DNA from: a virus
Virus record (IMG/VR): IMGVR_UViG_3300049810_000318
Coordinates: 1 to 22,751 of that record
Strand: one strand, 5' to 3'
DNA length: 22,751 bases
This document shows positions 139 to 19,821 of the stretch, in pieces. Position 1 is the first letter of the stretch. Each line of letters opens with the position of its first letter. A program made the position numbers and the translations under genes. The notes under the pieces were generated by a model. It was not told the DNA's origin and did no database searches. It saw only the letters and a program-made list of their open reading frames with translations.

Positions 139-168
139 ATAATACCAAAAAGTGGAGGGGATTGTCAA
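139..168 (-). promoter_or_regulatory. Sigma-70-like promoter reading left, leaderless geometry
   Basis: On the minus strand TTGACA (163-168) is followed by an 18-nt spacer and TATTAT (139-144, five of six consensus bases). Six nucleotides later comes ATG (130-132). The geometry is the same as at 2371-2400 and 9568-9597. The ATG opens only a three-codon frame (Met-Met-Asn-stop), so the product may be an RNA or a gene starting further left. Confidence 0.5.
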
Positions 169-179
169 GGCACTATAAA

Positions 180-292: not shown

Positions 293-458
293 GAATAAAA
301 TAGGTGGTTAGGGTCTCCGAGTAACAGCAGCAAATCAAAGAATTTCCCACACATCAGAAACATCATCAAATACCAATATAATTACACACTTCTGCACACT
401 TCCACACACATTATATTCACAAGCACCATGAGACCCTCAGAATTATATTAAAACCACC

Positions 459-1091
459 TCAGAGTCCCTCTACTTCACTCCTTTTAAAGGGTAATATACG
501 GTATTTTAGATACTCATTGGGTATGGTATCGAATGCTTCTTTGAGATGTACGTCCATTGCAAGACTTATTCGTGGTTTCTTATACATATTACGTCTAACA
601 CCATGCATAAGTAAGCATCCAATCACATGGAGTTCTCCTCTTACATTCTGTGTCTTACCAGTGTCATCATAGTGTGTATACGAGGGTTCTTCACCATCTA
701 TAAACGTATTCATAGCATAAAAGTGTTGCATTCCCGATTGTCTCTCTTCGTCTTCTATGTCATGACCGTGGTTGTGAGTTAATAGGTCTTCTCCGTGTCG
801 TAGTATGTTCCCCCAGCATTGTATCCTCAGTTCGTCTTCGTCTTGGAATTCGGGTAGTTGGAAGACACGTTTGGGTATATTCAGTGGTCTGATGTCGGGG
901 TGTTGTAACCAGTTGTATACTTGGTGTTGTTTGGTGAGTCCCTTATATACGGACTTAGAGGTGTTCTTTATCTCTAATATCTTATGCTCGTCCCGTGTGA
1001 GTATGTACCCTATGTGTTTGCATTCGTCCTCTGTAAAGAAGTTTGGGTATCTTACATGAGAATAGTGGTCGATTACTCTTTGTGTATCCAT
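459..1091 (-). CDS. 2OG-Fe(II) oxygenase-like protein
   Basis: A 210-residue protein with a double-stranded beta-helix signature. A Trp-Gly-Asn-x-Leu strand at 93-97 leads into a histidine-rich metal motif HNHGHD (106-111). A distal histidine lies in LMHGV (H163) and an arginine at R174 (PRISLAMD) fits the 2OG carboxylate-binding position. This order is typical of 2OG-Fe(II) dioxygenases, which hydroxylate a substrate using 2-oxoglutarate, O2 and iron. The substrate is unknown. The chosen ATG at 1091 lies inside the end of the upstream gene (19-bp overlap). An upstream in-frame start at 1181 would sit entirely in the other gene's coding sequence. Codon choice has more C-ending codons than the genes at 4-20 kb. 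It is the last gene before the noncoding left end. Confidence 0.55.
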   Translation of the reverse strand: MDTQRVIDHYSHVRYPNFFTEDECKHIGYILTRDEHKILEIKNTSKSVYKGLTKQHQVYNWLQHPDIRPLNIPKRVFQLPEFQDEDELRIQCWGNILRHGEDLLTHNHGHDIEDEERQSGMQHFYAMNTFIDGEEPSYTHYDDTGKTQNVRGELHVIGCLLMHGVRRNMYKKPRISLAMDVHLKEAFDTIPNEYLKYRILPFKRSEVEGL

Positions 1092-1993
1092 GTTCTGAAG
1101 TAGAGGTCGGCTTTTGTGTGAGTATCTTCGTCTTGGGTTTGTGCATAGACGAACTTTGCTTGTTCTGATATATCTCTCCATTCGTGGTCATAGGATATAT
1201 AATCGGCATCCATGTCTTCTTCATTGGGGATTGACCATTCTTGTGGGAAATAACATTTGACATTGTCTTCCCATTCTTGTATCAGTCTTTGATTGGATTC
1301 TTTGTTGTTGATATAGTAGATTCCGAACTCTCCACATCCTGTAGGTAATACCACTCCTTTAAAGGTGTCTTCGATGTACTTTTGCACTCCTTGTTTGGTG
1401 TCTCCGTATTTGGATATGAGTCCTGTTGGGTCTGCCTTAAAGGTCTCGTATATCTCATGCAGGTCTCTGTAGTTGAATGCAGTGAAGAAATGAGCATAGT
1501 CCGTTTGTGTCGTGGTATCTTCGTCTGTCCACCATTTCGTAGGCATCACCATGTAAGGGAGTTCTTGTTCTTTGATGGTTTTAATGGTTTCGGGTTCGAG
1601 TATCTCATAGACCTCTGTGGTTTTACCCTTTGCATTAATGAAGTCTAATATGGTGTTCTGACTGGTATTCCTTGGAAATAGTTTGGTGTCCATAATAAGG
1701 ACTTTAATGTTCTGATTAGCACGGTCTTGGAATCCACCGACTCCTCTGTTCATGAGTAGTATTTTATTCCATGGTGATTCGGGATTGACTCCCTCTAATG
1801 CATTAAATTCGATGGGTTTGATTTCGTCCAATAGTCCCTCTGTTCCTGTATTGGTATAACAATTAAAACTGACGGTGTTGTGGTCTTTAGGGTATATGGT
1901 GTCGACTCGTAAGTTTTTGAGTCGGATGTAAGCACTATTAATTTCCTCGACAGAGGTGTTTCCGTTTTTTATCAGTACGATTTCTGTTGCCAT
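1073..1993 (-). CDS. Unknown protein, 306 aa
   Basis: Not recognised. It is a soluble, acidic, mixed alpha/beta-looking protein without signal peptide or membrane segment. The start at 1993 is supported by a GGAG ribosome binding site nine bases upstream. A TAAATA element (2031-2036) some 40 bases upstream could be a late-type promoter. The 3' end overlaps the start of the oxygenase-like gene at 1091, suggesting translational coupling. It uses many C-ending codons (ACC, GTC, CAC) and CGA or CGT arginine codons, unlike the A/T-ending, AGA-rich usage of nrdA. That hints at a different recent origin for this gene and its downstream partner. Confidence 0.7.
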   Translation of the reverse strand: MATEIVLIKNGNTSVEEINSAYIRLKNLRVDTIYPKDHNTVSFNCYTNTGTEGLLDEIKPIEFNALEGVNPESPWNKILLMNRGVGGFQDRANQNIKVLIMDTKLFPRNTSQNTILDFINAKGKTTEVYEILEPETIKTIKEQELPYMVMPTKWWTDEDTTTQTDYAHFFTAFNYRDLHEIYETFKADPTGLISKYGDTKQGVQKYIEDTFKGVVLPTGCGEFGIYYINNKESNQRLIQEWEDNVKCYFPQEWSIPNEEDMDADYISYDHEWRDISEQAKFVYAQTQDEDTHTKADLYFRTWIHKE

Positions 1994-2030
1994 TATATAA
2001 TCTCCATAATATAAATGTGTTTGTTCGTTG

Positions 2031-2037
2031 TATTTAG
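2031..2037 (-). promoter_or_regulatory. Candidate late-type promoter (CTAAATA)
   Basis: CTAAATA on the minus strand resembles the core of the T4 late promoter (TATAAATA). It lies about 38 bases upstream of the 306-aa gene and just past the stop of the 108-aa gene. It is a short motif in AT-rich DNA, so chance is possible. Confidence 0.3.
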
Positions 2038-2364
2038 TTATCTTCTCATACGTGCAATATCGATTGCATGTTCCTTGTCGTCCTCAAAGATGGGGACTGC
2101 ATTGGATTTATGCATCGTTGCAATACCGATTAACTTACGTTCACCAGTATATTGCATGGGTTCTTGTTTAGGTGTAATAGCACCCGTACTCGTTCCCTCG
2201 TATGACGGGTACTCTTCCTTTATTTCTTTCATGACTTGGTCGAACAGTTTCTGTTGGACGTTTATCATTTGTTTGTATTTAGAAGGTTTTGAAAATGCTT
2301 TGGTTTTCCTTCGTTTTCCATGTGGCCCATATCGTAATGATGACCCTAAATTAATCATACCCAT
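2038..2364 (-). CDS. Conserved small phage protein, 108 aa
   Basis: A small basic protein starting MGMINLGSSLRYGPHGKRRK, rich in Lys and Arg at the N-terminus and ending IARMRR. From memory the GSSLxYGPHGKRRK segment is a recurring small protein in marine T4-like phages. Its function is not known to me. There is no ribosome binding site before the ATG at 2364. A strong sigma-70 promoter ends exactly six bases upstream, so the mRNA probably starts at the AUG. A second ATG two codons in (2358) is an alternative start. Confidence 0.65.
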   Translation of the reverse strand: MGMINLGSSLRYGPHGKRRKTKAFSKPSKYKQMINVQQKLFDQVMKEIKEEYPSYEGTSTGAITPKQEPMQYTGERKLIGIATMHKSNAVPIFEDDKEHAIDIARMRR

Positions 2365-2370
2365 GTGTCC

Positions 2371-2400
2371 ATTATACTACGAACACATGAGTCCTGTCAA
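2371..2400 (-). promoter_or_regulatory. Near-consensus sigma-70 promoter, predicted leaderless transcript
   Basis: TTGACA (2395-2400), an 18-nt spacer and perfect TATAAT (2371-2376) on the minus strand. Six nucleotides separate the -10 box from the ATG at 2364, which puts the expected transcription start on the A of the start codon. It serves the 108-aa gene. Confidence 0.7.
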
Positions 2401-2406
2401 GTAATT

Positions 2407-2514
2407 TTAGAAAGAAAGTTTAATTACTTTATTGAGTCTGCCACTCTTCATGAGTGAATGAAATTTATCTGCAAAGGAATGAACCGAGGCAGACAATGAT
2501 GCATAATGTCGCAT
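2407..2514 (-). CDS. Small ORF, 35 aa
   Basis: A 35-codon frame beginning MRHYASLSASVHSF and ending VIKLSF, preceded by AGGAGATAACA, a good Shine-Dalgarno at normal spacing. The peptide is basic and rich in Ser and His, with no recognised domain. It lies alone between the terminator at 2639-2656 and the promoter at 2371-2400, so it would need its own promoter; a weak candidate exists at 2619-2647. The strong ribosome binding site is the main support. Small solitary phage genes of this kind are often host-takeover functions, but that is only inference. Confidence 0.5.
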   Translation of the reverse strand: MRHYASLSASVHSFADKFHSLMKSGRLNKVIKLSF

Positions 2515-2598
2515 TGTTATCTCCTGTTATGTTGAAACTATCCGACAACTGCACTTCGGTTTCCCTACTTAGTCTTTGTGTCTTAATTGTTTCGGTTA

Positions 2599-2618
2599 TG
2601 TGTCATTTATGTGACACA
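2599..2618. repeat. 7-bp inverted repeat with 6-nt loop
   Basis: TGTGTCA (2599-2605) and TGACACA (2612-2618) are perfect complements around TTTATG. It lies just downstream of the candidate -10 box at 2619-2624 on the minus strand, so it could be an operator or a hairpin in the 5' leader of the 35-aa ORF. Confidence 0.45.
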
Positions 2619-2647
2619 ATAGTATTTAGACAAAAAGAAGGGGTCAA
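2619..2647 (-). promoter_or_regulatory. Weak promoter candidate overlapping a terminator
   Basis: TTGACC (2642-2647, five of six) lies inside the terminator stem. After a 17-nt spacer comes TACTAT (2619-2624, four of six). It would transcribe the 35-aa ORF. The -10 box is weak. A TAAATA motif overlaps at 2623-2628. Confidence 0.3.
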
Positions 2648-2656
2648 CCGACCCCT
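2631..2656 (-). terminator. Rho-independent terminator after the outer-membrane protein gene
   Basis: On the minus strand AGGGGTC and GACCCCT form a perfect 7-bp, mostly G-C stem around the tetraloop GGTT (2639-2656). The stem is followed by TCTTTTTG. It starts 24 bases after the stop codon at 2680. It is the clearest intrinsic terminator in the window. The plus-strand side also has a T-rich run, so it may work in both directions. Confidence 0.75.
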
Positions 2657-2679
2657 GTCTTTATTTTACCATGGTTATC

Positions 2680-3282
2680 TTAGAAATTATAAGATAATCC
2701 GAATGATACTGAATCAGATGTTTGATTCTCAAATGCCTCATCCAACATAATCAATGCACTTAGTGTAAAGTTATTGAAGTCTTTGGACAAACTCAATGTT
2801 GAGAAGTCATCGTTTCTATCGTGATATCCATATCCGATAGTAGCATCAACACCATTCACAAACCATAAATCATATGATACATGTGCATAGTCGTCTTCAG
2901 TATCCGTATCTAAGAAATATGAAACGGTTAGATTGTTATATCCTACCTTTACAAATCCCTCTTCAACTGTATCGTAATCACCCTTGTCATAACGATACTG
3001 AATGAGACCTAACTGGACATCTAAATTGTCCATGACATCTAAGTTATATCCTAGATATAGGTCTTGTTCTTGAGTTGCTTCGTCTCCGAAGTCCACCTCA
3101 CCAATCCATGCACCAACAAAGAATCCGTTAGAATCCAATTCGATACCTGCATTAAACGATGATGCACCTGCCGATTGACTGACACCTCTCCACATATAGT
3201 CACTTGAGTAACCTATGCTTCCATTTACACCTGCAAATGCAGATGTTGATAGGACAAATAGTCCTAATAGTATATTTTTCAT
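2680..3282 (-). CDS. Outer-membrane beta-barrel-like protein (TIGR02001/Gcw_chp-like)
   Basis: A 200-residue protein with a signal peptide (MKNILLGLFVLSTSAFA, cleavage after about residue 17). It then has alternating strands rich in Tyr, Gly and Asp, and ends in Phe (SFGLSYNF), as outer-membrane barrels do. The opening GSIGYSSDYMWRGVSQS strongly resembles the TIGR02001 (Gcw_chp) family of proteobacterial outer-membrane proteins (SDYxxRGxSQS). The start at 3282 is fixed by AGGAGG seven bases upstream; an earlier in-frame start at 3300 would precede that site. It has its own promoter candidate and terminator, so it may be expressed alone. The likely location is the host outer membrane, where it could alter permeability or block superinfection; that role is inference. 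Confidence 0.75.
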   Translation of the reverse strand: MKNILLGLFVLSTSAFAGVNGSIGYSSDYMWRGVSQSAGASSFNAGIELDSNGFFVGAWIGEVDFGDEATQEQDLYLGYNLDVMDNLDVQLGLIQYRYDKGDYDTVEEGFVKVGYNNLTVSYFLDTDTEDDYAHVSYDLWFVNGVDATIGYGYHDRNDDFSTLSLSKDFNNFTLSALIMLDEAFENQTSDSVSFGLSYNF

Positions 3283-3302
3283 AATATACCTCCTAACCAT
3301 CT

Positions 3303-3331
3303 ATTATACAACAAATGAGTCTATCTGACTA
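3303..3331 (-). promoter_or_regulatory. Promoter candidate for the outer-membrane protein gene
   Basis: Perfect TATAAT (3303-3308) on the minus strand. A 17-nt spacer separates it from TAGTCA (3326-3331, four of six) in the -35 position. The predicted transcript starts near 3296 and carries the AGGAGG site, so unlike other promoters here it is not leaderless. Confidence 0.45.
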
Positions 3332-4001
3332 GAGGGTTTTTGATATCATCTTTCCATAACCACTGCACGAACTTCTTTGTCTCTTCATCCAGTGTAAATT
3401 TAGGAATGACATAGGAACTCTTGTGGATATGCTCTGCAACTTGTTCCATTGACCCATCCACTTGACTGAAATCGCAGTATAGATTTTCTGTGATGTGAAC
3501 ATTCGACTTACCCTTAATTTCGTCTAAATGTAACACTCTAGTGTAAGGTGTACCATTTCTGTTTATCCAATCACTCTGTTGTCGAAATAAACCAGTAGTA
3601 ACGATTGCATGAAATTCACTAGGGGTCATACTTCCACCATATCTTGGAATCTTATCTCCCTTGTCTATTCCATGTTGCATCATAGTGGGTAGAAACCTAA
3701 GGCATGATACAAATCTCTCATAGGGATTACGAGTAATGGTGAAGACATCTATGTTGTTCTCTGTTATCCAATCATCCAGTGTTGGGAATACTTGAAATGC
3801 TTGGTCTAATGTTAGATGTGCTAGTCCATCGACATTTAGTGAGTCGAGGGTTCTCTGATTGATAGGTAATACCTTAGACATTTGAGTACAGAAACAGTCG
3901 TAATCACCTGTATCCAATTGTTCGTATATGGAATTTCTCAGTCGACTTCCACCAGTCTTAGGTATATGCATGTAAAGACCGACCCATTCATCGGTCTTCA
4001 T
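3321..4001 (-). CDS. Sulfotransferase family protein
   Basis: A 226-residue soluble protein with both cofactor motifs of cytosolic and Golgi-type sulfotransferases. HIPKTGGS (12-19) is the loop that grips the 5'-phosphosulfate of PAPS. TRNPYERFVS (90-99), with R91 and S99, fits the 3'-phosphate-binding strand and helix. It would move a sulfuryl group from PAPS onto a hydroxyl or amine. The acceptor is unknown. It resembles the Sulfotransfer_2 type family. It follows a 2OG-Fe(II) oxygenase gene, so it could sulfate a newly made hydroxyl; that pairing is inference. An alternative GTG start at 4019 overlaps the oxygenase stop codon (TAGTG). The ATG at 4001 is preferred because a GGGA lies eight bases upstream. 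Confidence 0.7.
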   Translation of the reverse strand: MKTDEWVGLYMHIPKTGGSRLRNSIYEQLDTGDYDCFCTQMSKVLPINQRTLDSLNVDGLAHLTLDQAFQVFPTLDDWITENNIDVFTITRNPYERFVSCLRFLPTMMQHGIDKGDKIPRYGGSMTPSEFHAIVTTGLFRQQSDWINRNGTPYTRVLHLDEIKGKSNVHITENLYCDFSQVDGSMEQVAEHIHKSSYVIPKFTLDEETKKFVQWLWKDDIKNPLVR

Positions 4002-4018
4002 GTTCTTAATCCCGTACA

Positions 4019-4717
4019 CTAGTCTGTTTCTTGTGGTGGGTTAAGTTCCTCGTAAGTGGCAAACCTATAGTTTCCTGCAACACTCCATCTTTCTCCATCA
4101 CAATAGAATGGATATACTGAATGTTGTAACCATGCAGGGAAGACTAGGATGTCTCCTTCTGCTGGTATATGCATAAATCTTGATTGATTCATAAACAACA
4201 TTTCACCATAGTATAACTCTATATTACCTGCAATACTAGGTTCGTCACCATGTGCATTATCATACGGGTTATTGGCAACATCTGTAGGGTCTACAGTGTT
4301 TTTGGTGTAGATAACATAAGAGAAATTACCTGTATGTTGGTGTCTTGGATTGAAATCTCTTGCTGATGCACAATTGCACCAAACTCCCTCAGATACTATA
4401 TGGTGGTCTTCCATTCCCATGTTCTGTTGGTTAGTGAAGTTTACGATATGTTGTCTTATATGTCCTTCTAACTTATCAGATATCAAGTCCTGTAGAAAGA
4501 GTTGTTTCTCAACTCTACCTGCAAGTTGACCTTTTACATCTGTTGCATCACCCGATGCATTTAGGTTTGTGATATGTGTATTCAACTCATCTATAAATTC
4601 GTCATGTATTTTTCCGAGATATACAACTGGCCCGAATGGTGAAAATGTTTCACCATTTATTGGTTGTGATTCCCAATCGGGAAAGTGTTGTATCTTTTTA
4701 GATGAGAGAGGTTTCAT
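4019..4717 (-). CDS. 2OG-Fe(II) oxygenase
   Basis: A 232-residue protein with the full 2OG-Fe(II) motif set. W113 to N116 lead into the metal pair RHQHTG (H126, H128). The sequence GDILVFPAWLQHSV (188-201) provides the distal histidine H199, and R210 (GERWSV) is the 2OG anchor. The pattern matches the putative 2OG-Fe(II) oxygenase family common in marine phages (PF13759-like). It probably hydroxylates a small molecule or macromolecule; the substrate is unknown. The ATG at 4717 is chosen because GGAG lies seven bases before it. An earlier frame start at 4756 lies wholly inside the 72-aa gene. The true start still overlaps that gene by 20 bp. The sulfotransferase gene follows directly. Confidence 0.75.
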   Translation of the reverse strand: MKPLSSKKIQHFPDWESQPINGETFSPFGPVVYLGKIHDEFIDELNTHITNLNASGDATDVKGQLAGRVEKQLFLQDLISDKLEGHIRQHIVNFTNQQNMGMEDHHIVSEGVWCNCASARDFNPRHQHTGNFSYVIYTKNTVDPTDVANNPYDNAHGDEPSIAGNIELYYGEMLFMNQSRFMHIPAEGDILVFPAWLQHSVYPFYCDGERWSVAGNYRFATYEELNPPQETD

Positions 4718-4916
4718 TCTCTTTCTCCACAAATACCACTCCACCTCTTCTGACAAGTTCGTTTTTAACCTTTTGTCTTAGTTTAGGTACGACTGGTTTA
4801 TTAAATGCTTCAATCAATTCTTGGATTGATTTCTGTTTAATGTAATCATGAGTTGTTGTTAGTTTTCCAGTATTTCTATCTTTAGCAATTACTGTCTTTC
4901 CGTATTTAATTGGCAT
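4698..4916 (-). CDS. Conserved small protein, 72 aa
   Basis: A small basic protein starting MPIKYGKTVIAKDRNTGKLT, with a likely N-terminal beta hairpin and a helix ending NELVRRGG. From memory, short proteins opening M-P-x-K-Y-K-K and containing ELVRRG recur in marine T4-like phages. The function is unknown. Its ATG overlaps the stop of the 55-aa gene (TAATG) and its end overlaps the oxygenase start, so it belongs to a tightly coupled chain of small genes. Confidence 0.7.
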   Translation of the reverse strand: MPIKYGKTVIAKDRNTGKLTTTHDYIKQKSIQELIEAFNKPVVPKLRQKVKNELVRRGGVVFVEKENETSLI

Positions 4917-5083
4917 TATCCTTGTCCTCTGTTAACTGATATGTTTCTTTTCTTTGATTTATTCATAGTAGATGTCCCTAGTTTTACTGAACGACCTCTA
5001 CCTGCTTTACCTATTGATGTTACCTTTCTGCCCTTACCATTGATGGAGGACTTATGTTTTTTCTTTGAACTTGCTTTTGCCAT
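4916..5083 (-). CDS. Small basic protein, 55 aa
   Basis: A very basic 55-residue protein starting MAKASSKKKHKSSINGKGRK and containing GKAGRGRS, STMNKSKKR and a C-terminal NRGQG. From memory the SSINGKGRK to RGQG layout matches a small protein found in cyanophages and other marine T4-like phages. The charge suggests nucleic acid or virion DNA binding, but no function is established to my knowledge. Both ends are TAATG overlaps, with the 28-aa ORF upstream and the 72-aa gene downstream. Confidence 0.75.
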   Translation of the reverse strand: MAKASSKKKHKSSINGKGRKVTSIGKAGRGRSVKLGTSTMNKSKKRNISVNRGQG

Positions 5084-5169
5084 TATGTAAACACCTGTAT
5101 TAGTTCTAGGAATAGAATACCTGCAGTTAAGGACGTTAGTATTTTAAGTATTGTTATTTGTTTTCTCAT
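5083..5169 (-). CDS. Tiny membrane protein candidate, 28 aa
   Basis: A 28-codon frame (MRKQITILKILTSLTAGILF to LIQVFT) with a basic N-terminus and one hydrophobic segment long enough to cross a membrane (about 7-27). Its stop overlaps the start of the 55-aa gene as TAATG, the junction used repeatedly in this genome. It overlaps the end of the zinc-finger ORF by 26 bp. No strong ribosome binding site is visible, so translation may be coupled. The exact stop/start overlap supports it, but it is short enough to be chance. Confidence 0.4.
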   Translation of the reverse strand: MRKQITILKILTSLTAGILFLELIQVFT

Positions 5170-5305
5170 TTCTTTTTTCCATGTAATGTTTATGACTACA
5201 TTCTACACCACAGAAAATGTATTGTTTGTCAGCAGAATGGTATTTAACATCTTGGATAATCACCTTCTCATTACAAACAGAACACCTCAGTGTAAAGAGT
5301 TCCAT
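5144..5305 (-). CDS. Small zinc-finger-like protein, 53 aa
   Basis: A 53-residue protein with MELFTLRCSVCNEK (Cys-x2-Cys) and IFCGVECSHKHY (Cys-x3-Cys, then His). The layout fits a treble-clef or FCS-type zinc-binding fold. It may bind nucleic acid or protein; there is no specific family assignment. It starts three bases after the stop of the 5309-5920 gene. The ribosome binding site is weak, so coupling is likely. The cysteine pattern is the main evidence that it is real. Confidence 0.55.
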   Translation of the reverse strand: MELFTLRCSVCNEKVIIQDVKYHSADKQYIFCGVECSHKHYMEKRNEKTNNNT

Positions 5306-5308
5306 AAA

Positions 5309-5920
5309 CTAACTTTTAATTTGAACCTTTTGGTATACTTTACCACTAGATTCCTGTATTTCTTCTTCGGGTTCATCTTCAAATGGACTATACCATAACT
5401 CTAAGACTAACCTTTCACCATCCATTACTGGTGGCATTCCGTAATTTCTTTGAGAGGGGTTATTGAATTGAATAACATCTCCCTCTTCCATTACAATTAC
5501 GTTATTGTCAACGATTAGGTTTCCACCCTTGTAATCATTGCATAACTCGATGATTGCTATTCCCGTGAATACAGAATCATCATCTTCCTTTGACCAGTTT
5601 TGTGTTGACCCTTGTGGATATGATATTATTCTCCACTCATCAACCTTGTCAAAATCTTGTGTCGGATGGACAAATTCTCTGACCCAATCAACGACCTTTA
5701 GGAATACACCCGAATCATCATTTGACTGGCATAGCAAAATTTCTCTATTTCCATCATTATATTTTAGAATTGAATTGGATTTACCTATTACTACTGGGAA
5801 TACTCCCTTATCAGTATGTGTAACCTCTTCAACCTCTTCTTTATCAAATATGTCAATAATACCCTCAATTGTTGATGGGTCTATGATGTCTCTTGTTATG
5901 TGTATTTCAAATGGATTCAT
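5309..5920 (-). CDS. 2OG-Fe(II) oxygenase fold, catalytic residues lost
   Basis: A 203-residue protein with the late-strand layout of a 2OG-Fe(II) oxygenase. WRIISYPQG (96-104) stands where the motif before HxD normally lies. KGGNLIV (131-137) and EEGDVIQFNN (145-154) match the usual core strands, and GERLVLELWY (168-177) keeps the arginine anchor R170. The expected HxD or HxH is replaced by NWSKEDDD, and the distal histidine position reads SQRNYG. It probably cannot bind iron in the normal way. It may be a structural or regulatory paralogue of its neighbours, or use other ligands. The ATG at 5920 has AGGA seven bases upstream. A longer frame to 6037 lies inside the next gene. Confidence 0.55.
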   Translation of the reverse strand: MNPFEIHITRDIIDPSTIEGIIDIFDKEEVEEVTHTDKGVFPVVIGKSNSILKYNDGNREILLCQSNDDSGVFLKVVDWVREFVHPTQDFDKVDEWRIISYPQGSTQNWSKEDDDSVFTGIAIIELCNDYKGGNLIVDNNVIVMEEGDVIQFNNPSQRNYGMPPVMDGERLVLELWYSPFEDEPEEEIQESSGKVYQKVQIKS

Positions 5921-5927
5921 AATTTTC

Positions 5928-6608
5928 CTATTTTGGTTGTAGAAACTGGACTTGTGATATTCTCCAGTTTTCTTCCGAATATTTAGTGTAGTCGTCAATC
6001 CATGCACCGTGCAATCTATTGCCTGGAAATATAACACAAGTGTTAAACTCTGCAGGGATGATTCGTTCTACCTCAAAGGTTTCTTCTACTGGATATAGAA
6101 CACCTAAGTGTTCTTCGTTGGTTATCCACTCACCTCTATAAACTGCAGTTCCACCACTCTGATGTTTATCCAAATATACAAGCATGTTAAGTGTTGATAA
6201 GTGGTCGGGGGTGTCAAAGGTAGAATCTATATGTGGATAGTGTTGCATCTTGGTATCAAACTCTGTTATGGTTTGGAAACAGTTGAACTCATGCAACTTT
6301 GTCCAATCATAATTCCCTTTCCAATAATACTGTCTGCATATGTTTTGTATTCTATCGAAGTCTGCAAAATACTTTCTTGTAGGATGCCCTATCTTATCTA
6401 CAATTCTACAGTCATTGTATTCAATACCATTCTTTGATTGTCTTTCAGTGTTGTATTTCCACATAGGGAACTGACGATTCATTACGAAGTCATGTATATC
6501 TTGTGGGTTCTCGTAGAAATTACGAATAGTAATTGTTAGTCCATCAAACTCATGTTCTAGTTTTGGGTTGACTGCAAACAACTCATCGTATATAAATGTC
6601 TTATTCAC
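5928..6608 (-). CDS. 2OG-Fe(II) oxygenase (DUF6445-like)
   Basis: A 226-residue protein with a complete motif set: HYPHID (H126, D128), a GGTAVYR strand (152-158), IFPGNRLHGAW with distal H200, and NWRISQVQF with R216. The arrangement resembles the DUF6445 branch of the 2OG-Fe(II) superfamily. The reaction is probably a hydroxylation with an unknown substrate. The start is a GTG at 6608, inside the end of the upstream oxygenase gene (8-bp overlap), with GGAGAGG about nine bases ahead. Its degenerate relative follows eight bases downstream, so three oxygenase-fold genes lie in series. Confidence 0.72.
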   Translation of the reverse strand: MNKTFIYDELFAVNPKLEHEFDGLTITIRNFYENPQDIHDFVMNRQFPMWKYNTERQSKNGIEYNDCRIVDKIGHPTRKYFADFDRIQNICRQYYWKGNYDWTKLHEFNCFQTITEFDTKMQHYPHIDSTFDTPDHLSTLNMLVYLDKHQSGGTAVYRGEWITNEEHLGVLYPVEETFEVERIIPAEFNTCVIFPGNRLHGAWIDDYTKYSEENWRISQVQFLQPK

Positions 6609-7368
6609 CTGTTAGCACCTCTCCGTAATGTAGGTTTGTTCCAGTCATGTTATCTGTAATGGGTTCATTGTGTTTGAAATTAAATGATATTGCAATTCTC
6701 TCATAGGTATCAACATCTCCATTAGTATGTGCTGGAACTTCATGTTGTAGATAGGAGGGCCATAGTAAAAATTCACCTGTCTGATTATGAAAGTGTACTT
6801 CTTGTTGATGTCCATCCGACCCAATAACTGTCATATCTGGCCTCACTTGTTCTTGGGGATTCGATACTGCTCTTAAATTTGCAGTTGCAAGTAAACTTGG
6901 GTTCAAAAATTTAATTGGTTGTTGGTCTCTCTCACATTGAACATAGTAAGTTCCACTAACATGACAATGTTCATGATTATGTGTTGGATGATGATGTGGT
7001 GTATTATAAACACTTATCCATGCAAAGAGGTGTATATCATTTCTGCATAGGTTTCTGACTTCTATGTTGTATTGTGATTCTATGTATGCAATGTAAGTAT
7101 CCTTTGCAGTATTACTAAAATCAGTAAACCATGGCAATTGATGTGTCTCTTCTCTTAAGTCTTCGTCAAAGTAAGTGGTGTAGTTCCTTGCAGTGTCATT
7201 AGGATATCTGTTCTTAACCTCTGCAACTAATCTACGACAGTCCTCTGCAATAACATCATGTGGTAAATCAAACTCACCCTTTAACATTGAAGTTGGGAAT
7301 AATTCCAACAATTCTGCTGTAGGTGCAGGAGACCATTTTGCCCTATTGATGTTAGTTATTGGTTTCAC
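6601..7368 (-). CDS. 2OG-Fe(II) oxygenase (PF13759-like)
   Basis: A 255-residue protein. WISVYNTPHHHPTHNHEH (117-134) holds the metal-binding histidines, probably H130 and H132. GEFLLWPSYLQHEV (198-211) gives the distal H209, and YERIAISFNF (222-231) gives R224. The order and spacing match the PF13759 type that is common in marine phages. The substrate is unknown. The start is a GTG that overlaps the stop of the lipoprotein gene as GTGA, with no clear ribosome binding site, so coupling is likely. The next oxygenase overlaps its end by 8 bp. Confidence 0.78.
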   Translation of the reverse strand: MKPITNINRAKWSPAPTAELLELFPTSMLKGEFDLPHDVIAEDCRRLVAEVKNRYPNDTARNYTTYFDEDLREETHQLPWFTDFSNTAKDTYIAYIESQYNIEVRNLCRNDIHLFAWISVYNTPHHHPTHNHEHCHVSGTYYVQCERDQQPIKFLNPSLLATANLRAVSNPQEQVRPDMTVIGSDGHQQEVHFHNQTGEFLLWPSYLQHEVPAHTNGDVDTYERIAISFNFKHNEPITDNMTGTNLHYGEVLTGE

Positions 7369-8226: not shown

Positions 8227-8462
8227 TATTTCTCCTCTATCTTATAGTCTAAACCACTGGATGAACGAATCTCTACCATCTTCTTGGTATCCCAATCTCT
8301 AAACTTTAAATGTTTTTCCTTCTGAATTAGAAGTTTCTTTGCTGTATAAACTGACTTATACATGTTTCCCTGTAAACCTTGTTGACGATAAACAGTTATT
8401 TCGTACTCTTCAGAGAAAATCCATCTCCAAAAAAGTATTAGTTGTTCTTTCAATTTACTCAT
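8226..8462 (-). CDS. Unknown small protein, 78 aa
   Basis: Not recognised. It starts MSKLKEQLILFWRWIFSEEY, an amphipathic helix that may lie on a membrane, and continues with short strands (EITVYRQQG, MVEIRSSSGLDYKIE) like a small beta domain. Similar short proteins exist in marine T4-like phages, from memory, without known function. The ATG at 8462 is preferred because GGGGAGA lies about ten bases upstream. A longer frame to 8504 would lie inside the oxygenase gene. It overlaps the spanin-like gene by TAATG. Confidence 0.6.
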   Translation of the reverse strand: MSKLKEQLILFWRWIFSEEYEITVYRQQGLQGNMYKSVYTAKKLLIQKEKHLKFRDWDTKKMVEIRSSSGLDYKIEEK

Positions 8463-9057
8463 TGTAATATTCTCCCCATCCTGTACATATGTATTTAGTC
8501 TCATTTAAAGGTGGGTTTCCACGATGCATATGTGTGAATTGCCCAGGCCATATCAAAACAGTTCCCTTTCTTGGTTTAAATCTGCAACTCTGATATAGAA
8601 ATTCTGTTTCTCCACCCTCTTCGATATCGTTTAGATATAACATCCATGCAAGAACTCTATGTCTTGAACGTGGGCCATCTGCCTCATAATGCCATTGATG
8701 AAATCCCTCAGTTTTTTCGGTCTTCTGTATCTTTCCATCAAAACTAAAGACATCAACATCCTCTCTTAAACTATATGCATGTTTATATGCAGGGAAAAGG
8801 TCATTGTTAAGAATGTCAAAGAAGAATCCTTCTCTTTCTGCTCTTAATCTATTGTATTGGGGTCTTTGTGAAATTGCACCAAAGGTTGCAGCTCTATCAG
8901 ATTTATCAATTGCAAGACCACCATCATATTCTCTTCTATGTGTAGTCCATCCACCCTCTTCATAATATTTGTAATTATCAAGAATATAATTGCAGATTCT
9001 ATCAGATATTGCATCATGGAAGACACCGATATGGTCTCCCCTATTTTCGAATTTCAT
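8455..9057 (-). CDS. 2OG-Fe(II) oxygenase, prolyl-4-hydroxylase-like
   Basis: A 200-residue protein. The metal motif is WHYEAD with H123 and E125 (HxE instead of the usual HxD). The core then follows as MLYLNDIEEGGETEF (139-153), KGTVLIWPGQFTHMHRG (164-180, distal H176 or H178) and ETKYICTGW (186-194) with K188 at the 2OG-binding position. This is the layout of the P4H-like family, whose phage members also often use Lys. It may hydroxylate a protein or small molecule; the substrate is unknown. It follows the HAD gene by six bases and its end overlaps the 78-aa gene. Confidence 0.75.
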   Translation of the reverse strand: MKFENRGDHIGVFHDAISDRICNYILDNYKYYEEGGWTTHRREYDGGLAIDKSDRAATFGAISQRPQYNRLRAEREGFFFDILNNDLFPAYKHAYSLREDVDVFSFDGKIQKTEKTEGFHQWHYEADGPRSRHRVLAWMLYLNDIEEGGETEFLYQSCRFKPRKGTVLIWPGQFTHMHRGNPPLNETKYICTGWGEYYNE

Positions 9058-9063
9058 GTTAGT

Positions 9064-9561
9064 TTACTTTCTTAACTCCTTTAGTTGGTTAATGGTGTCT
9101 TCTGCACTAGTATGTAAAATACCAATTCCACCATGCTCTTCCCAAGCATCAAGGTTCTTTTGTCTGTCGTCAATAAGAACACTTCCTTTGATTGCAAACA
9201 TACCTTTCTGACTACCAGTCATAGTACAAGTGACTACCACTGAAGGACTGACATGTTCTCTAATCCACTCGTTCTTATCGAACACTACTAATTCTCTGTT
9301 GATAACACCTGCAGCAGTCAAGATTTCCCAAGGAAGTCCTGTATGTCTTATGTATGCAACTAAGTCATACATATCTGGCATAGGTGGTAACATTCTGAAC
9401 AATCTCTTGTTCGTTAACTCTTCCTTCCTTTCGTCATAATCGTTATGACCTTGGTCGGTATTAGGGAATTCTCTCCCTGTTAAAGTTTCAACACCAGTGT
9501 TGAAATCTGCCAATACTCCGTCCATATCAACGAAGATTCTTTTTATTTCTTTATTTTCCAT
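9064..9561 (-). CDS. HAD-family 5'(3')-deoxyribonucleotidase-like phosphatase
   Basis: A 165-residue protein with the HAD catalytic motifs. DMDGVLADF (12-20) carries the nucleophile Asp and the acid/base Asp, ILTAAG is motif II, and LIDDRQKNLDAW is motif IV. The size and C1-type cap fit the 5'-nucleotidase, deoxy type C family, which dephosphorylates deoxynucleoside monophosphates. This suits a phage that also carries ribonucleotide reductase, although the substrate is not proven. The ATG at 9561 is chosen because a sigma-70 promoter ends six bases before it; a frame start at 9597 would lie in the promoter. Confidence 0.72.
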   Translation of the reverse strand: MENKEIKRIFVDMDGVLADFNTGVETLTGREFPNTDQGHNDYDERKEELTNKRLFRMLPPMPDMYDLVAYIRHTGLPWEILTAAGVINRELVVFDKNEWIREHVSPSVVVTCTMTGSQKGMFAIKGSVLIDDRQKNLDAWEEHGGIGILHTSAEDTINQLKELRK

Positions 9562-9565
9562 ACTG

Positions 9566-9904
9566 TTAGTATACATCTTTTTGGGTAGCATTGTCAAGTG
9601 TTTTATTCAATCTATGTGCAAGTGTTTCTGCCTCATTTTCATCGATAGATTCGTTGTTTATCACCTGTCTTACATGCACCATTTCATGTGCAAGTGTTAT
9701 GTATCTCTCCTCATCATACTTGACGAACATCTCCATATACATATTGACCCTTGCATTATGTGGATAATCTAGGAATCCTTGTCGTTTATCGGGATGTGGT
9801 AGTCTGAATATGTTTAGTGTAACTTTGGAATTGGTTATTCCTAGTTGATTTGCAAAGTATATTGCTCTATCTCTCAATTTCACATTGTTACATAATATAT
9901 TCAT
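9566..9904 (-). CDS. Zinc metallopeptidase-like protein (HExxH)
   Basis: A 112-residue protein with LAHEMVHVRQ: H73, E74 and H77 form the HExxH zinc site. An acidic DENEAE (89-94) follows that could supply the third ligand, as in gluzincin-type and SprT-like small peptidases. It resembles small phage-encoded metallopeptidases of unknown target. It lacks a signal peptide, so it should act in the cytoplasm. The start at 9904 has only a weak AGG nearby. It follows the small zinc-ribbon gene by seven bases. Confidence 0.65.
   Translation of the reverse strand: MNILCNNVKLRDRAIYFANQLGITNSKVTLNIFRLPHPDKRQGFLDYPHNARVNMYMEMFVKYDEERYITLAHEMVHVRQVINNESIDENEAETLAHRLNKTLDNATQKDVY
9568..9597 (-). promoter_or_regulatory. 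Sigma-70 promoter inside the metallopeptidase gene, leaderless geometry
   Basis: TTGACA (9592-9597), an 18-nt spacer and TATACT (9568-9573, five of six). Six nucleotides then lead to the ATG at 9561. The promoter overlaps the last codons of the upstream gene and would drive the HAD gene and the oxygenase cluster beyond. No Shine-Dalgarno is present in the six-base gap. Confidence 0.65.
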
Positions 9905-9911
9905 AACCTAT

Positions 9912-10064
9912 CTAATCATCAAAGTCCTCTAGTTCTTCAATGTTATCCTCATCCACTTCAGCACCACATAATGGACAATACTCCACATTATACTGATATG
10001 AATCCATCTCATGTTCTACATCTGATTGACTTTTACATCCATCACAATATACTTTAACTCTCAT
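9912..10064 (-). CDS. Small zinc-ribbon protein, 50 aa
   Basis: A 50-residue protein with two Cys-x2-Cys knuckles (CDGC at 7-10 and CPLC at 30-33) and a very acidic tail (EVDEDNIEELEDFDD). This is a zinc ribbon, possibly for protein or nucleic acid contact. The acidic tail makes DNA mimicry or protein binding possible, but that is speculation. The start overlaps the end of the 81-aa gene by 11 bp. Confidence 0.65.
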   Translation of the reverse strand: MRVKVYCDGCKSQSDVEHEMDSYQYNVEYCPLCGAEVDEDNIEELEDFDD

Positions 10065-10299
10065 CTAGTGTTTTCTCCCCGACAACTTCTTTCCAAAGAT
10101 TGTCAAATGATTTTGCCTTTCCATTTAGTTCAACAAATGGAACTTTACGGTCAATGTCTGCTTTTGCAAAGTCCACTCCTTGTATTTTATATCTAACACT
10201 ATTTTCCATTATGTCCAGTGATTCTAACATGGATATGATTCTCCAGTCTTGAGCACCTTGTTGGTCTTCGGGTAATAGATATGCAATAAACTCTCTCAT
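10054..10299 (-). CDS. Unknown small protein, 81 aa
   Basis: Not recognised. It starts MREFIAYLLPEDQQGAQDWR and has mixed helix and strand segments, with no signal or membrane span. The ATG at 10299 overlaps the glutaredoxin stop (TAATG) and has GGGAAG four bases upstream, which decides against the in-frame start at 10311. It may be functionally linked to glutaredoxin through coupling, but nothing in the sequence names a role. Confidence 0.65.
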   Translation of the reverse strand: MREFIAYLLPEDQQGAQDWRIISMLESLDIMENSVRYKIQGVDFAKADIDRKVPFVELNGKAKSFDNLWKEVVGEKTLDES

Positions 10300-10538
10300 T
10301 AGTCTTCCCAAACATCTCCGTGTTTTACATATTCTGCAAGTTGGTCGTAACCACCTATTGCATTACCGTCCACTCTGATTTGTGGAAAGGTTCTTGCAGT
10401 AGGAAACTCTTCAAAGAGTTCTTCTCTAGTGAAATCAGTATCCAACTGTTTGTAAGTGTATTCTAGTCCTTCCTTTTCACATAAAGACTTTGCTTTATCA
10501 CAAAATGGACATTGTGTTTTTCCAAATATTTCAATCAT
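10299..10538 (-). CDS. Glutaredoxin
   Basis: A 79-residue thioredoxin-fold protein with the dithiol active site CPFC (10-13). The conserved cis-proline stretch is TFPQIRVDG (50-58), followed by the GGYDQL glutathione-binding turn (63-68). It would re-reduce the ribonucleotide reductase encoded just upstream, completing the phage dNTP supply pathway, as phage-encoded glutaredoxins and NrdC do. GAGG lies seven bases before the ATG. It sits at the distal end of the nrdA-nrdB operon after two tiny membrane-protein genes. Confidence 0.9.
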   Translation of the reverse strand: MIEIFGKTQCPFCDKAKSLCEKEGLEYTYKQLDTDFTREELFEEFPTARTFPQIRVDGNAIGGYDQLAEYVKHGDVWED

Positions 10539-10548
10539 AATTTTACCT

Positions 10549-10644
10549 CTATAATAGTACCAATAAACAAAATAATCCTACCCACCATAACCAATGAGCA
10601 GATTTGAGTTCCTCTTTAATATCATTAAAAAACTTTTTAATCAT
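10549..10644 (-). CDS. Tiny membrane protein, 31 aa
   Basis: A 31-codon frame, MIKKFFNDIKEELKSAHWLW then VGLFCLLVLL, with a charged N-terminal helix and one C-terminal membrane span. It overlaps the upstream tiny gene as ATGA and its stop lies ten bases before the glutaredoxin start. The location between two sure genes and the exact overlap support it. The function is unknown. Confidence 0.5.
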   Translation of the reverse strand: MIKKFFNDIKEELKSAHWLWWVGLFCLLVLL

Positions 10645-10808
10645 AATAAGTAATCACTCCTTTCTTTCTTTGCAGTATATATTGTTCCAGTTTTACGACC
10701 ATAATAAGGGTCTTTCTCAACACCTTTAGTTCCCTCATCAAAAAAGAAAAAGGTTATCAATGACACTAATGCCAACCAAAGTATTGCTATTAAAATTACA
10801 CCATCCAT
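10641..10808 (-). CDS. Small membrane protein, 55 aa
   Basis: A 55-residue protein with an N-terminal membrane span (GVILIAILWLALVSLITFFF, residues 3-22) and a basic, soluble tail (DPYYGRKTGTIYTAKKERSD). Its ATG overlaps the stop of the QueC-like gene (TAATG) and its own stop overlaps the next tiny gene (ATGA). It has no known family. The two adjacent tiny membrane proteins may act together at the inner membrane, which is inference. Confidence 0.6.
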   Translation of the reverse strand: MDGVILIAILWLALVSLITFFFFDEGTKGVEKDPYYGRKTGTIYTAKKERSDYLL

Positions 10809-11434
10809 TATAGTCCTTCCGTGTATATATGTTTATGAGACATGGATTGGTATTCTTTACACTTATAACAAACATTGCAAGGTTGTAAATCATCTGTTGG
10901 ATAACTACAACTCACCACAAGTGGTTTGATATTGTCGGGAATACTTTCCCACATCTTTTTCTTAGTCCATCCACTCAATGGTGGATACATTTTTTGGTCA
11001 TGGTCAAGTCCATTCATTATTCTTCCAAAGAACTCAAATGCAATTTGAAATTCCCATGCTCTTGGTAGGAAGTGGTAATCACCTCCATCACCATATTCTA
11101 ATATCCCACTGTTAACTCCCCAGTAGAATTTCTTAACTTGTGGATACTTAAGTGCAGCAGTGCAACATGCAAGTATCCAGTGTTTAGATGAATGAAAGTA
11201 CTCCTCTGATTCACCAAAATACGGGTTAGGTGAATAGGTTGGATGTTCATGTATGATAAGTGGTGTCTTTAATAGATTACATATCTCTACTACATTTTCT
11301 CTTAACTTGTTTGCTTGTGATTCGGGATTGGGAAAAATACTATGCAATGCAACCACATTCTCATTTCTTCCCTTTAACCAATTCAATAGTGCAACGGATT
11401 CTACTCCACCACTAAACATAACAATACTTTCCAT
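10808..11434 (-). CDS. queC: QueC-like PP-loop ATPase (7-cyano-7-deazaguanine synthase-like)
   Basis: A 208-residue protein with the ATP-pyrophosphatase P-loop at the N-terminus (FSGGVES, 7-13). A C-terminal zinc-type cluster C176-x9-C186-x2-C189-x2-C192 is present, the diagnostic layout of QueC. QueC turns 7-carboxy-7-deazaguanine into preQ0 using ATP and ammonia. Phages use preQ0 for tRNA queuosine or as a modified base in DNA. No QueD, QueE, FolE or DpdA-type gene is visible in this window, so precursors would come from the host or elsewhere in the genome. Other PP-loop enzymes are possible. It abuts nrdB (TAG then ATG). Confidence 0.65.
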   Translation of the reverse strand: MESIVMFSGGVESVALLNWLKGRNENVVALHSIFPNPESQANKLRENVVEICNLLKTPLIIHEHPTYSPNPYFGESEEYFHSSKHWILACCTAALKYPQVKKFYWGVNSGILEYGDGGDYHFLPRAWEFQIAFEFFGRIMNGLDHDQKMYPPLSGWTKKKMWESIPDNIKPLVVSCSYPTDDLQPCNVCYKCKEYQSMSHKHIYTEGL

Positions 11435-12532
11435 CTATAATTTAAAGTCCTCAAAGGTAGAATCATCTACATCTTGTTTAATACCACCAATGACATAAGA
11501 TTCAATCTCCGTCTCTTGTGGTGCATTCTGAAGTCCTCTACTGTTGAACCAATGTTGTGTCCATGGTAAAGGGTTATTTGTTGAAGATATCTCATAGATA
11601 GGATTTAGTCCTATAGCACGAAGTCTTTTGTTTGCAATAAACTCAACATAGTTTCCTAGTAGTTGTGTTGATAATCCAATCATTGAACCATGTTGGAATA
11701 AGAAGTCTGCCCAGTCCTTTTCTTGTTTGACTGCATCTTCGTATAACTCATATACTTCTTTCTCACAATCTTTCATAACTTGATTCATCAACTTATCATT
11801 CTCTTGGTTCTTATATGCTTTAAGTATGTGTTGTGATATTGCAAGGTGTTGTGATTCGTCTCTTGCAATAAGAGAGATAATCTTTGCACTTCCTTCCATC
11901 ATCTTAAGTTCTCCGAATCCGAATGAACATGCAAAGGATACGAAGAATCTAATTCCTTCTAAGATGTTAACTGATATCAATGCAAGGTATAGTGCCTTAT
12001 ATAAATCGTATTCATCTACTTTAAGACCTAGTAATCTCCTACGACCAAGTGCAATAAACTCATCATACTTCTCCGTAACCATCTCTGCACGTTTTACAAT
12101 TGCTTCTTCATCAAGTATAGTGTCAAAGATATCACTAGGGTCTGCATAAATGTTTTTAATGATATGGGTATAACTTCTACTATGGATTGTTTCCATAAAG
12201 TCCCATGTAATAATACAAGACTCAAGTTCAGGCAAAGTCACAAACGGTAAAAATGCTATGGATGGAGCTCTACCTTGAACCGAGTCGAGTAAAGTTTGAT
12301 ACCTCAAATTAGAGGTAAAGATGTGTTTTTGTGCATCATTAAGATTCTGATAATCTGCTCTGTCTTTCTGCAGAGATACCTCTTCGGGTCTCCAAAAGAA
12401 TCCTAATTGTTTTTGAGTGAGTTTATCAAATATTGGATACTTGAACTCATCAAATCTTTGTGTGTTTAACTCCTCTCCAAAGAACAGTTTGTTCTTCGTG
12501 AAGTCAACTTTATTTTTATTAAATACTGTCAT
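11435..12532 (-). CDS. nrdB: Ribonucleotide reductase class Ia, beta subunit
   Basis: A 365-residue NrdB. The diiron and radical residues are present: D83, then E114 and H117 in METIHSRSY with the radical tyrosine Y121. A later ARDESQH segment gives further metal ligands. It makes the tyrosyl radical that NrdA uses to convert ribonucleoside diphosphates to deoxy forms. The start overlaps the oxygenase stop as ATGA with no strong ribosome binding site, so it is probably coupled. An unrelated 2OG oxygenase gene separates it from nrdA. Confidence 0.95.
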   Translation of the reverse strand: MTVFNKNKVDFTKNKLFFGEELNTQRFDEFKYPIFDKLTQKQLGFFWRPEEVSLQKDRADYQNLNDAQKHIFTSNLRYQTLLDSVQGRAPSIAFLPFVTLPELESCIITWDFMETIHSRSYTHIIKNIYADPSDIFDTILDEEAIVKRAEMVTEKYDEFIALGRRRLLGLKVDEYDLYKALYLALISVNILEGIRFFVSFACSFGFGELKMMEGSAKIISLIARDESQHLAISQHILKAYKNQENDKLMNQVMKDCEKEVYELYEDAVKQEKDWADFLFQHGSMIGLSTQLLGNYVEFIANKRLRAIGLNPIYEISSTNNPLPWTQHWFNSRGLQNAPQETEIESYVIGGIKQDVDDSTFEDFKL

Positions 12533-13485
12533 TTCTTTTTCTTAATTTCTGCTTTGGTTAAATAGGAATAGTTATTTAGATAATCAGATTTCTTCCCATA
12601 CTTCCCATCTAACTCATCCCAACCATCCCAAATTTTCTGTGCCTTATCGAATTGTTCATACTTATCTTCTGATGGGGCATATCTATTTGGTCTTCCATCA
12701 TATGCAAATACAGATGCATCTCTTTCGTCTGCACCTCTTCCTAGATATCCTATTGACGCCTCGGGAAATGCAGTAATATATCCTGCAGGATTTATAAAAT
12801 GTAAAAACATATGATAACTATATTCACCTAAAAATTTGTCTCTCCAGTGAATTGCATTTGGCCCTTGATAAAGTAAAACATCTCCTACCTCTAATGAAAT
12901 TGGAGTTCCAACTCTTTCTCTATGTGGTAATTTTTGTGAAACACTTCCTAAGAATTCTACATCTGCACCTGCATTAACATAGTCTTTATCCTTCTGCACC
13001 CATATCTTCCATGGAGTATTATCATCAGATGCATAGTCTAAACATATAGTGCAAGATATTTCACATGATGGTCTATCGGTATGTGCTTTTAGAAATGCAC
13101 CTCTGTCATATTTTCTAGTATATGAATAGGTATCAACTAATTTAATATCAAATACATTATCTAAATTATCTCTCATCCACCTATGCAAAGCAACTGCAGG
13201 TGGAAAGTTATATGCACCAACAGATTTATTTAAAGTTTCTTGGGGTGAATCATGAATGATGTCGTCTTCTCTATGAAAGAAATGTTCATTGTGTTTTGGG
13301 TCTCTCTCTGATACTTTCCATGCATCCAATGTCATGTTAGTAATTTCTTTAGGAATAAAGTTCTTCAATACCACATACCCATCTTCTATAAACTTCAATG
13401 TAAGAGGTGATATTTTGCCTGGCATTTTTTCCGTCTCATCTTGATACTGAATTTTTTCAGTTCTATCCTTAAATGGCACAGGCAT
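12529..13485 (-). CDS. 2OG-Fe(II) oxygenase between nrdA and nrdB
   Basis: A 318-residue protein. It has YTRKYDRGAFLKAHTDRPS (122-140) with the metal pair H135 and D137. GDVLLYQGPNAIHW (201-214) gives the distal H213. The 2OG anchor is less clear (R215, or a residue near YHMFLHF). N- and C-terminal extensions make it longer than the other oxygenases here. The reaction is probably hydroxylation of an unknown substrate. From memory, similar genes occur beside nrd genes in marine phages. The ATG at 13485 has a perfect AGGAGG six bases ahead. It overlaps the nrdA end by 17 bp and nrdB by ATGA. Confidence 0.72.
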   Translation of the reverse strand: MPVPFKDRTEKIQYQDETEKMPGKISPLTLKFIEDGYVVLKNFIPKEITNMTLDAWKVSERDPKHNEHFFHREDDIIHDSPQETLNKSVGAYNFPPAVALHRWMRDNLDNVFDIKLVDTYSYTRKYDRGAFLKAHTDRPSCEISCTICLDYASDDNTPWKIWVQKDKDYVNAGADVEFLGSVSQKLPHRERVGTPISLEVGDVLLYQGPNAIHWRDKFLGEYSYHMFLHFINPAGYITAFPEASIGYLGRGADERDASVFAYDGRPNRYAPSEDKYEQFDKAQKIWDGWDELDGKYGKKSDYLNNYSYLTKAEIKKKK

Positions 13486-19728: not shown

Positions 19729-19735
19729 GAAAACG

Positions 19736-19811: not shown

Positions 19812-19821
19812 ACGGTTAAAA

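Follow-up and report, generated by a model that had tools for sequence, protein, structure and literature searches.

What might a phage do with seven divergent proteins of the 2-oxoglutarate (2OG) oxygenase fold, all encoded on one strand? The question is raised by IMG/VR virus record IMGVR_UViG_3300049810_000318, all 22,751 bases of which (G+C content, 36%) make up the window analyzed here, and which we read, from its gene set and nearest relatives, as part of an uncultured marine lineage of T4-like phages. An original prediction, made from the letters alone, had located the seven genes, which we name by their starts: P1 (459), P2 (4019), P3 (5309), P4 (5928), P5 (6601), P6 (8455), and P7 (12529). 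All seven reading frames are indeed present and open on the minus strand. The predicted lengths, 200 to 318 residues, were right at the lower end and too low at the upper, the open reading frames (ORFs) reaching 324 residues in P7. We propose that these genes, which encode seven old and divergent versions of the fold, form a conserved accessory module whose products include a noncatalytic protein, P3, and a protein hydroxylase, P7, and we would put the probability of this reading at roughly one-half.

The block is conserved beyond chance as an ordered unit. Synteny was assessed in the viral contigs scanned with P5 and P7, with one locus per contig. The resulting 41 contigs (L numbers below) are not independent cases, since L003 has P5 and P7 identical to those of the window and several of the remaining contigs nearly duplicate one another. 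P5 occurs in 30 of them and is followed consecutively by P4 and P3 in 28, the other two contigs stopping at P5; in all 28 complete blocks, the gene immediately preceding P5 is that of a spanin lipoprotein. P7 is present in 40 of the 41 contigs and adjoins nrdA, nrdB, or both in every one. It is directly followed by nrdB in 38 (the remaining two contigs stop after P7) and directly preceded by nrdA in 38 (the remaining two have a P6-like gene between). In the window, P7 overlaps both reductase genes, P5 and P4 overlap by 8 bases, and P2 shares a single base (4019) with a sulfotransferase-like gene. The other members are variable: among the 28 complete loci (not all long enough to reveal them), P1 is found in 16, P6 in 15, and P2 in 10, and all seven genes occur together in 5. 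That the genes travel together in related phages bears out a check named in the original prediction; the P5-P4-P3 order and the linkage of P7 to the reductase genes are new findings.

The double-stranded beta-helix fold is present in P2, P5, and P6, which exceed curated Pfam cutoffs (P2 and P5 against PF13759 at 3.4e-12 and 2.1e-17; P6 against PF13640 at 1.2e-12), and in P3 and P7, for which confident AlphaFold2 models were used in fold searches. With its own ORF, P3 reaches PF13640 at 0.069, and 15 of 19 family members match this profile, at best at 1.6e-15. The P3 model (pLDDT, 85.1) finds a bacterial P4H at 3.5e-7 in Foldseek, as well as 6N1F (Z, 16.3; root mean square deviation [rmsd], 3.2; 157 aligned) and the viral vCPH (Z, 15.9; rmsd, 2.5; 149 aligned), so that its matches include prolyl hydroxylases; AlkB is also among them. 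P7 matches no Pfam family at an E value of ≤1, nor does its profile match any PDB sequence at that threshold. Its model (pLDDT, 87.7) finds PHD2 at 1.8e-9 in Foldseek, and by Z score SnoN (16.8; rmsd, 3.3; 206 aligned) and PHD2 (16.7; rmsd, 3.0; 186 aligned) are tied, with P4H also matched. For P1 and P4 the fold is probable, from family-wide matches that stay under the cutoff. P4 passes the cutoff for DUF6445 (1.3e-8) and meets PF13640 at 0.0012, as do all 17 members of its family at ≤0.01; PDB sequences gave its profile solely unconvincing, nonoxygenase matches, at 0.12 and above. The evidence is weakest for P1, which matches PF13759 across the whole domain at 0.0031, together with 5 of 11 family members at ≤0.01 (best, 0.0013). 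Profile searches thus did not place most of the proteins outside the superfamily, an outcome that the original prediction had named as fatal to it.

The original prediction was also right that the seven are not recent tandem copies, since hidden Markov model scores between the families peak at 10.2 bits. Profile comparison pairs P2 with P5 (95 to 96%) and P3 with P6 (87 to 89%), and probabilities for P4-P6 and P1-P5 fall below 1%. By local hhalign, P1 lies nearest P5 and P2 at just 18 to 35%, P7 lies nearest P6 at 8 to 26%, and P4 is near nothing. A tblastn search of 50,697 records with the window's P3 gave no match at 0.01, and P5 gave none at 1e-5, while P4 and P1 matched 5 records each, P2 matched 127, and P6 matched 439.

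A plausible metal site is kept in six of the seven proteins, as predicted. The candidate residues are invariant within each family (P1, 11 of 11 rows; P2, 5 of 5; P4, 17 of 17; P5, 18 of 18; P6, 11 of 11; P7, 24 of 24). P4, P6, and P7 show the pattern HxD/E..H (HID..H, HYE..H, and HTD..H), and in P6 the spacing from the distal His to the Lys is, we presume, that of P4H. P1, P2, and P5 have HxH..H, which is also found in the solved, uncharacterized P5 relatives 3BVC and 2RG4 and whose residues may likewise bind a metal.

The seventh protein, P3, has S, E, and Y where the three ligands would stand, in the window as well as in L004 and L006, and retains the Arg that we take to be the residue usually holding 2OG. 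Of the 19 family members, 12 have the full triad and 7 have a broken one: the window, L004, and L006 have lost all three ligands, L007 and L010 have a deletion and have lost the distal His, and in L012 and L016 only the first His is changed, to Met. The best P3 tree (19 rows, ligand columns left out) implies two site changes (bootstrap range, 2 to 3), and the best tree of P4 plus P5 (16 rows) implies three (range, 2 to 3). The window clade and L007/L010 join weakly in the P3 tree (77/66), with long branches meeting, so that a single loss common to both is possible. Counting L012/L016, the site was probably lost twice or more, in two or three events in all. The domain has nevertheless stayed open in all 19 aligned rows. 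Between the window and L006, 18 single-base codon changes are nonsynonymous and 15 are synonymous, a departure from neutrality with P = 0.0014. dN/dS is 0.365 for this pair and 0.227 and 0.181 for other broken-site pairs, compared with 0.252 and 0.182 for intact pairs; the value of 0.49 for window/L004 comes from a very close pair with few changes. By these measures, the gene is under purifying selection despite its broken site. The simplest reading is that P3 is a catalytically dead subunit needed by a neighbor, with which it would form a complex. A narrow literature search found no phage 2OG pseudoenzyme.

Clues to what the proteins act on come from gene fusions. In L011 and L013, P7 runs on into a methyltransferase domain. 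The best PDB sequence matches of the L013 domain are protein arginine methyltransferases, among them PRMT3 at 3.8e-9 over residues 32 to 121; toward the end of that match, the alignment pairs an EW that presumably belongs to the active-site loop of these enzymes. Pfam assigns the fused domain only to RrnaAD, PrmA, and general methyltransferase families. It matches the catalytic core of the arginine methyltransferases, and we describe it as arginine-methyltransferase-like. The L013-type domain occurs in 1 of 15 records searched, namely, L013's own contig; the contig of L011 lies outside those 15. A narrow literature search found no phage-encoded protein arginine methyltransferase. Likewise, P1 runs on into a spermidine-synthase-like domain in L011, L012, L013, and L016; Pfam Spermine_synth matches 3 of 11 P1 family members at ≤0.01 and exceeds the cutoff in L012 and L016. 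Such fusions suggest a target shared by the two activities, for which, in the case of P7, a protein is the best guess. Among the target classes suggested in the original prediction (virion proteins, host surface sugars, and nucleotides), the clearest hint is thus toward proteins, and for P7 alone.

Taken together, the module is strung through genes of nucleotide metabolism, spanins, and an outer membrane protein. Its six members with conserved metal-site residues are probably working oxygenases, each of which would use 2OG and O2 to oxygenate a different target. P3 would most likely be the noncatalytic partner of an active neighbor, probably P4 or P5, because it is encoded with both in every complete block seen. 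P7 is most likely a protein hydroxylase, since PHD2 and P4H are among the solved folds nearest to it and since two relatives carry the arginine-methyltransferase-like fusion.

Several observations weigh against this proposal. Fe/2OG chemistry is less certain for P1, P2, and P5, which have HxH..H rather than HxD/E..H. In P3, L012 and L016 lost just the first His, the branch leading to the window clade is long, and well-supported branches alone force only one site change in the P3 tree and two in the P4-plus-P5 tree. For the window/L006 pair, dN/dS is 0.068 in P4 and 0.375 in P7, so that the P3 value is about five times that of P4 and a partial relaxation of P3 is possible. The P7 fusion is seen in two contigs only. 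Small-molecule enzymes (SnoN, with the top Z score, HygX, and lysine/ornithine halogenases/hydroxylases) match the P7 model too, and the prolyl hydroxylase match therefore does not fix its substrate. Finally, the position of P7 in the nrd operon, beside a deoxynucleotidase gene, equally suits nucleotide chemistry.

One alternative is that the oxygenases modify nucleotides or DNA, with P7 acting on ribonucleotide reductase products and the others acting on bases, together with the QueC-like and 5'-deoxynucleotidase (NT5C) genes. We consider it unlikely, though not negligible. P7 is locked beside nrdA and nrdB, both partner genes lie within the block, 3 of 19 P3-family members weakly match Tet_JBP, and AlkB is among the matches of the P3 model. 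But the QueC-like PP-loop gene, which adjoins nrdB in the window (10808 to 11434, minus strand), is found in just 4 of the 28 complete P5-P4-P3 blocks, and the fusion partner of P7 resembles protein arginine methyltransferases, not nucleotide enzymes. In addition, the window ORFs scanned include no base-modifying set and no further preQ0 gene; about nine small ORFs lie outside that scan, and the record is a fragment.

A multisubunit hydroxylase, in which P3 would serve P4 or P5 as a scaffold or substrate-binding subunit, while P7 and the methyltransferase-like domain of its relatives would hydroxylate and methylate the same protein, possibly ribonucleotide reductase itself, is quite improbable. 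Much the same holds for a role in a superinfection or receptor-change program, in which the oxygenases would tailor the infected cell's surface glycans or outer membrane components. P2 is followed by the sulfotransferase-like gene and then by the Gcw_chp protein gene, the latter present in 13 of 28 blocks, and the 2OG run of the cultured phage HTVC008M adjoins a methyltransferase and a porin gene. Yet only 5 of the 28 blocks contain the sulfotransferase-like gene and only 10 contain P2 (a few loci may miss them for want of length), so that this role cannot explain the constant P5-P4-P3-P7 core; the window ORFs scanned hold no sugar-nucleotide gene.

We are more doubtful still of bulk 2OG consumption, a published proposal for cyanophages (PMC3037559; articles are cited here from the parts available to us) by which cheap oxygenases would shift the 2OG and nitrogen or succinate metabolism of the host. 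It would account for the presence of one fold in many divergent versions with no known shared substrate, but a bulk effect does not require seven families, each conserved in itself and each with its own ligand pattern, and P3 lacks the usual site. That P3 is simply a decaying gene product, as its lost ligands and the slower change of P4 across the same pair might indicate, is very unlikely in view of the domain open in every row, the synonymous excess, and the two broken-site dN/dS values (0.227 and 0.181) that are no higher than those of intact pairs.

The number of such genes per kilobase, from which the original prediction had argued for a dedicated program, says little by itself, since an abundance of 2OG genes is a known feature of marine T4-like phages. 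As a yardstick we counted merged PF13640 and PF13759 places at ≤0.01 in the densest 13 kb. Cultured phages give 5 (HTVC008M), 6 (S-CAM9), 6 (S-SCSM1), and 3 (ACG-2014f), and G001, a record with the same block, gives 4 of the seven (P1, P2, P5, and P6), within this range. The yardstick undercounts, as it finds 20 places in S-SCSM1, where the authors count 24 2OG-Fe(II) oxygenase genes (PMC9602691). We therefore rejected density, which is only mildly special, as the headline; the distinctive feature is the arrangement of the genes. Overall, the original observation is confirmed and the interpretation placed on it is partly supported.

How, then, does the window compare with known systems? The 2OG expansions of S-SCSM1 and of the early cyanophages, which mostly carry 1 to 5 such genes per genome (PMC3037559), draw on the same Pfam families, with many divergent members per genome and a similar local density. 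The window lineage differs in its ordered block, its metal-less member, and its nrd-operon member, and its relatives differ in their methyltransferase fusions; none of these features was found in the parts of PMC9602691 and PMC3037559 available to us. In the Pelagibacter phage HTVC008M, genes gp034 to gp042 comprise a 2OG-like run (gp036 and gp039 clear, gp034 and gp037 weak), a porin gene, and a methyltransferase that is spermidine-synthase-like; gp036 closely resembles P2, gp037 has phrog_1644 in common with P4, and the free-standing gp040, right after the 2OG-like run, resembles the domain fused to P1. This run, however, lies between tail/baseplate genes, its counterparts of P5 and P3 are at best very distant, and the phrog_2954 gene, of the P7 family, lies elsewhere (56871 to 57449). 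P3 and P7 share their fold with the prolyl hydroxylases PHD2, bacterial P4H, and viral vCPH, at about 9 to 15% identity in the rows seen, P3 differing in having no metal site. A general likeness to these enzymes is already known, many marine phage proteins having been reported to resemble human EGLN3 and to keep its iron-binding histidines (PMC12774648). Such oxygenases occur in hundreds of marine phage genomes, and the parts of the literature available to us name no tested target; the conserved block, with its metal-less member, and the methyltransferase fusions offer concrete pairs for testing.

The analysis also bears on annotation. P7 matches phrog_2954, labeled "ferrochelatase," at 3e-37, and a tblastn search with P7 finds 140 phage records. 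Among the 60 matches listed, 50 show "ferrochelatase" under the match, and S-CREM1 is already annotated "2OG-Fe(II) oxygenase family protein." We rejected the name for P7 on the grounds of the 2OG fold of its model, the missing match to the ferrochelatase profile PF00762, and a motif, HxDR..C...HWR, common to phrog_2954 members. PF00762 had no match at ≤1 in four cultured phages, although phrog_2954 members are present in three of them; the control search was positive in 10 of 14 genomes. HxDR is present in all four cultured-phage members aligned and HWR in three, and L065, the weakest member aligned, keeps HxDR and has HGR in place of HWR. The "ferrochelatase" of ACG-2014f carries a second, clear PF13640 domain (4.5e-17). 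Databases mostly name this family as a heme enzyme, which the present evidence contradicts. Unlike the ferrochelatase of the published pelagiphage "2OG oxygenase plus ferrochelatase" pairs, P7 has the 2OG fold, and its motif, rather than a ferrochelatase profile, recurs in further phrog_2954 members. Relabeling would bear at once on the reported enrichment of "ferrochelatase (phrog2954)," which is the family of P7, in seasonal viruses (PMC11561400) and on a partner-gene inference pairing ferrochelatase with 2OG oxygenase in pelagiphages (PMC9599517); P7 and the members examined here would undercut both. A search for a published correction of the label, with several terms required together, returned PMC11561400 alone. 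In a collection of bacterial and archaeal genomes, P7 relatives were found at two loci, L060 and L061, both on contigs of metagenome-assembled genomes (MAGs). L061, a 121-kb contig in a Sphingobacteriales MAG, is phage-like, with the order primase-nrdA-P7-nrdB and, after nrdB, a small gene whose product contains CAACHG, a heme-binding-like motif; the contig may reflect a true host or misbinning.

Other labels are similarly doubtful. "Endonuclease" was rejected for P3, as phrog_2297 is matched equally by P6, a clear oxygenase, at 5.9e-17. By tblastn, an intact relative of P3 has matches in 117 phage records; S-SM1 and S-SSM5, among the 10 matches listed, are "leprecan" in GenBank and "DNA endonuclease" in RefSeq. 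In HTVC008M (L051, NC_020484.1, 24214 to 27034), the RefSeq name "DNA endonuclease V" covers both the weak gp034 and gp039, a clear 2OG protein above the PF13640 cutoff. The "minor coat protein" label is questionable for P4 and may hide another 2OG gene in gp037.

Coordinates are collected in Table 1. The starts of P1 and P3 probably lie downstream of those of the longest ORFs, because the orthologous ORFs of L004 begin there; the longest P3 ORF extends to 6037.

Table 1. Features of the window discussed in the text (P1 residues are numbered from the 240-residue ORF, which extends to 1181)
Feature	Coordinates	Strand	Residues or remarks
P1, probable 2OG-fold protein, PF13759-like	459..1091	-	HxH (H136, H138), H193, R204; probable start
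P2, PF13759 2OG oxygenase	4019..4756	-	HQH (139, 141), H212, R223
P3, 2OG-fold protein without metal ligands	5309..5920	-	S-K-E replaces HxD, Y replaces distal H; R kept; probable start
P4, DUF6445/phrog_1644 ("minor coat protein"), 2OG-like	5928..6608	-	HID (126, 128), H200, R216
P5, PF13759 2OG oxygenase	6601..7368	-	HNH (130, 132), H209, R224
P6, PF13640 2OG oxygenase	8455..9057	-	HYE (123, 125), H178, K188
P7, phrog_2954 family ("ferrochelatase" label), 2OG fold	12529..13503	-	HTDR (141-144), H219, R221
nrdA, ribonucleotide reductase large subunit	13469..15784	-	Context
nrdB, ribonucleotide reductase small subunit	11435..12532	-	Context
Sulfotransferase-like gene adjoining P2	3321..4019	-	Context
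Gcw_chp protein, outer membrane type by appearance	2680..3300	-	Context
Overlapping Rz-like spanin pair directly ahead of P5	7365..8226	-	Context

Besides the reductase and spanin genes, the minus strand encodes a primase, a glutaredoxin, a 5'(3')-deoxynucleotidase, and three tRNAs. By megablast, the window matches 51 phage records; for the 10 listed, all of them Synechococcus phages, the match is confined to nrdA, at about 71%. A cyanobacterial host is not favored, because neither the MAG that contains L061 nor any of 10 related virus records (most of them fragments) showed a psbA-type gene. Promoter-like sites in positions 1 to 14000 show no excess (47, versus 55.5 in shuffles). The phage-borne Gcw_chp protein has, by eye, a signal-like start. 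A small protein at 9566 to 9904 (minus strand) has an HEMVH motif resembling that of zinc proteases, also by eye, and no Pfam match at ≤0.01. The tRNA genes, for Ser, Ala, and Thr, lie at 19639 to 19897 on the minus strand, and the plus-strand ORFs listed there are probably spurious.

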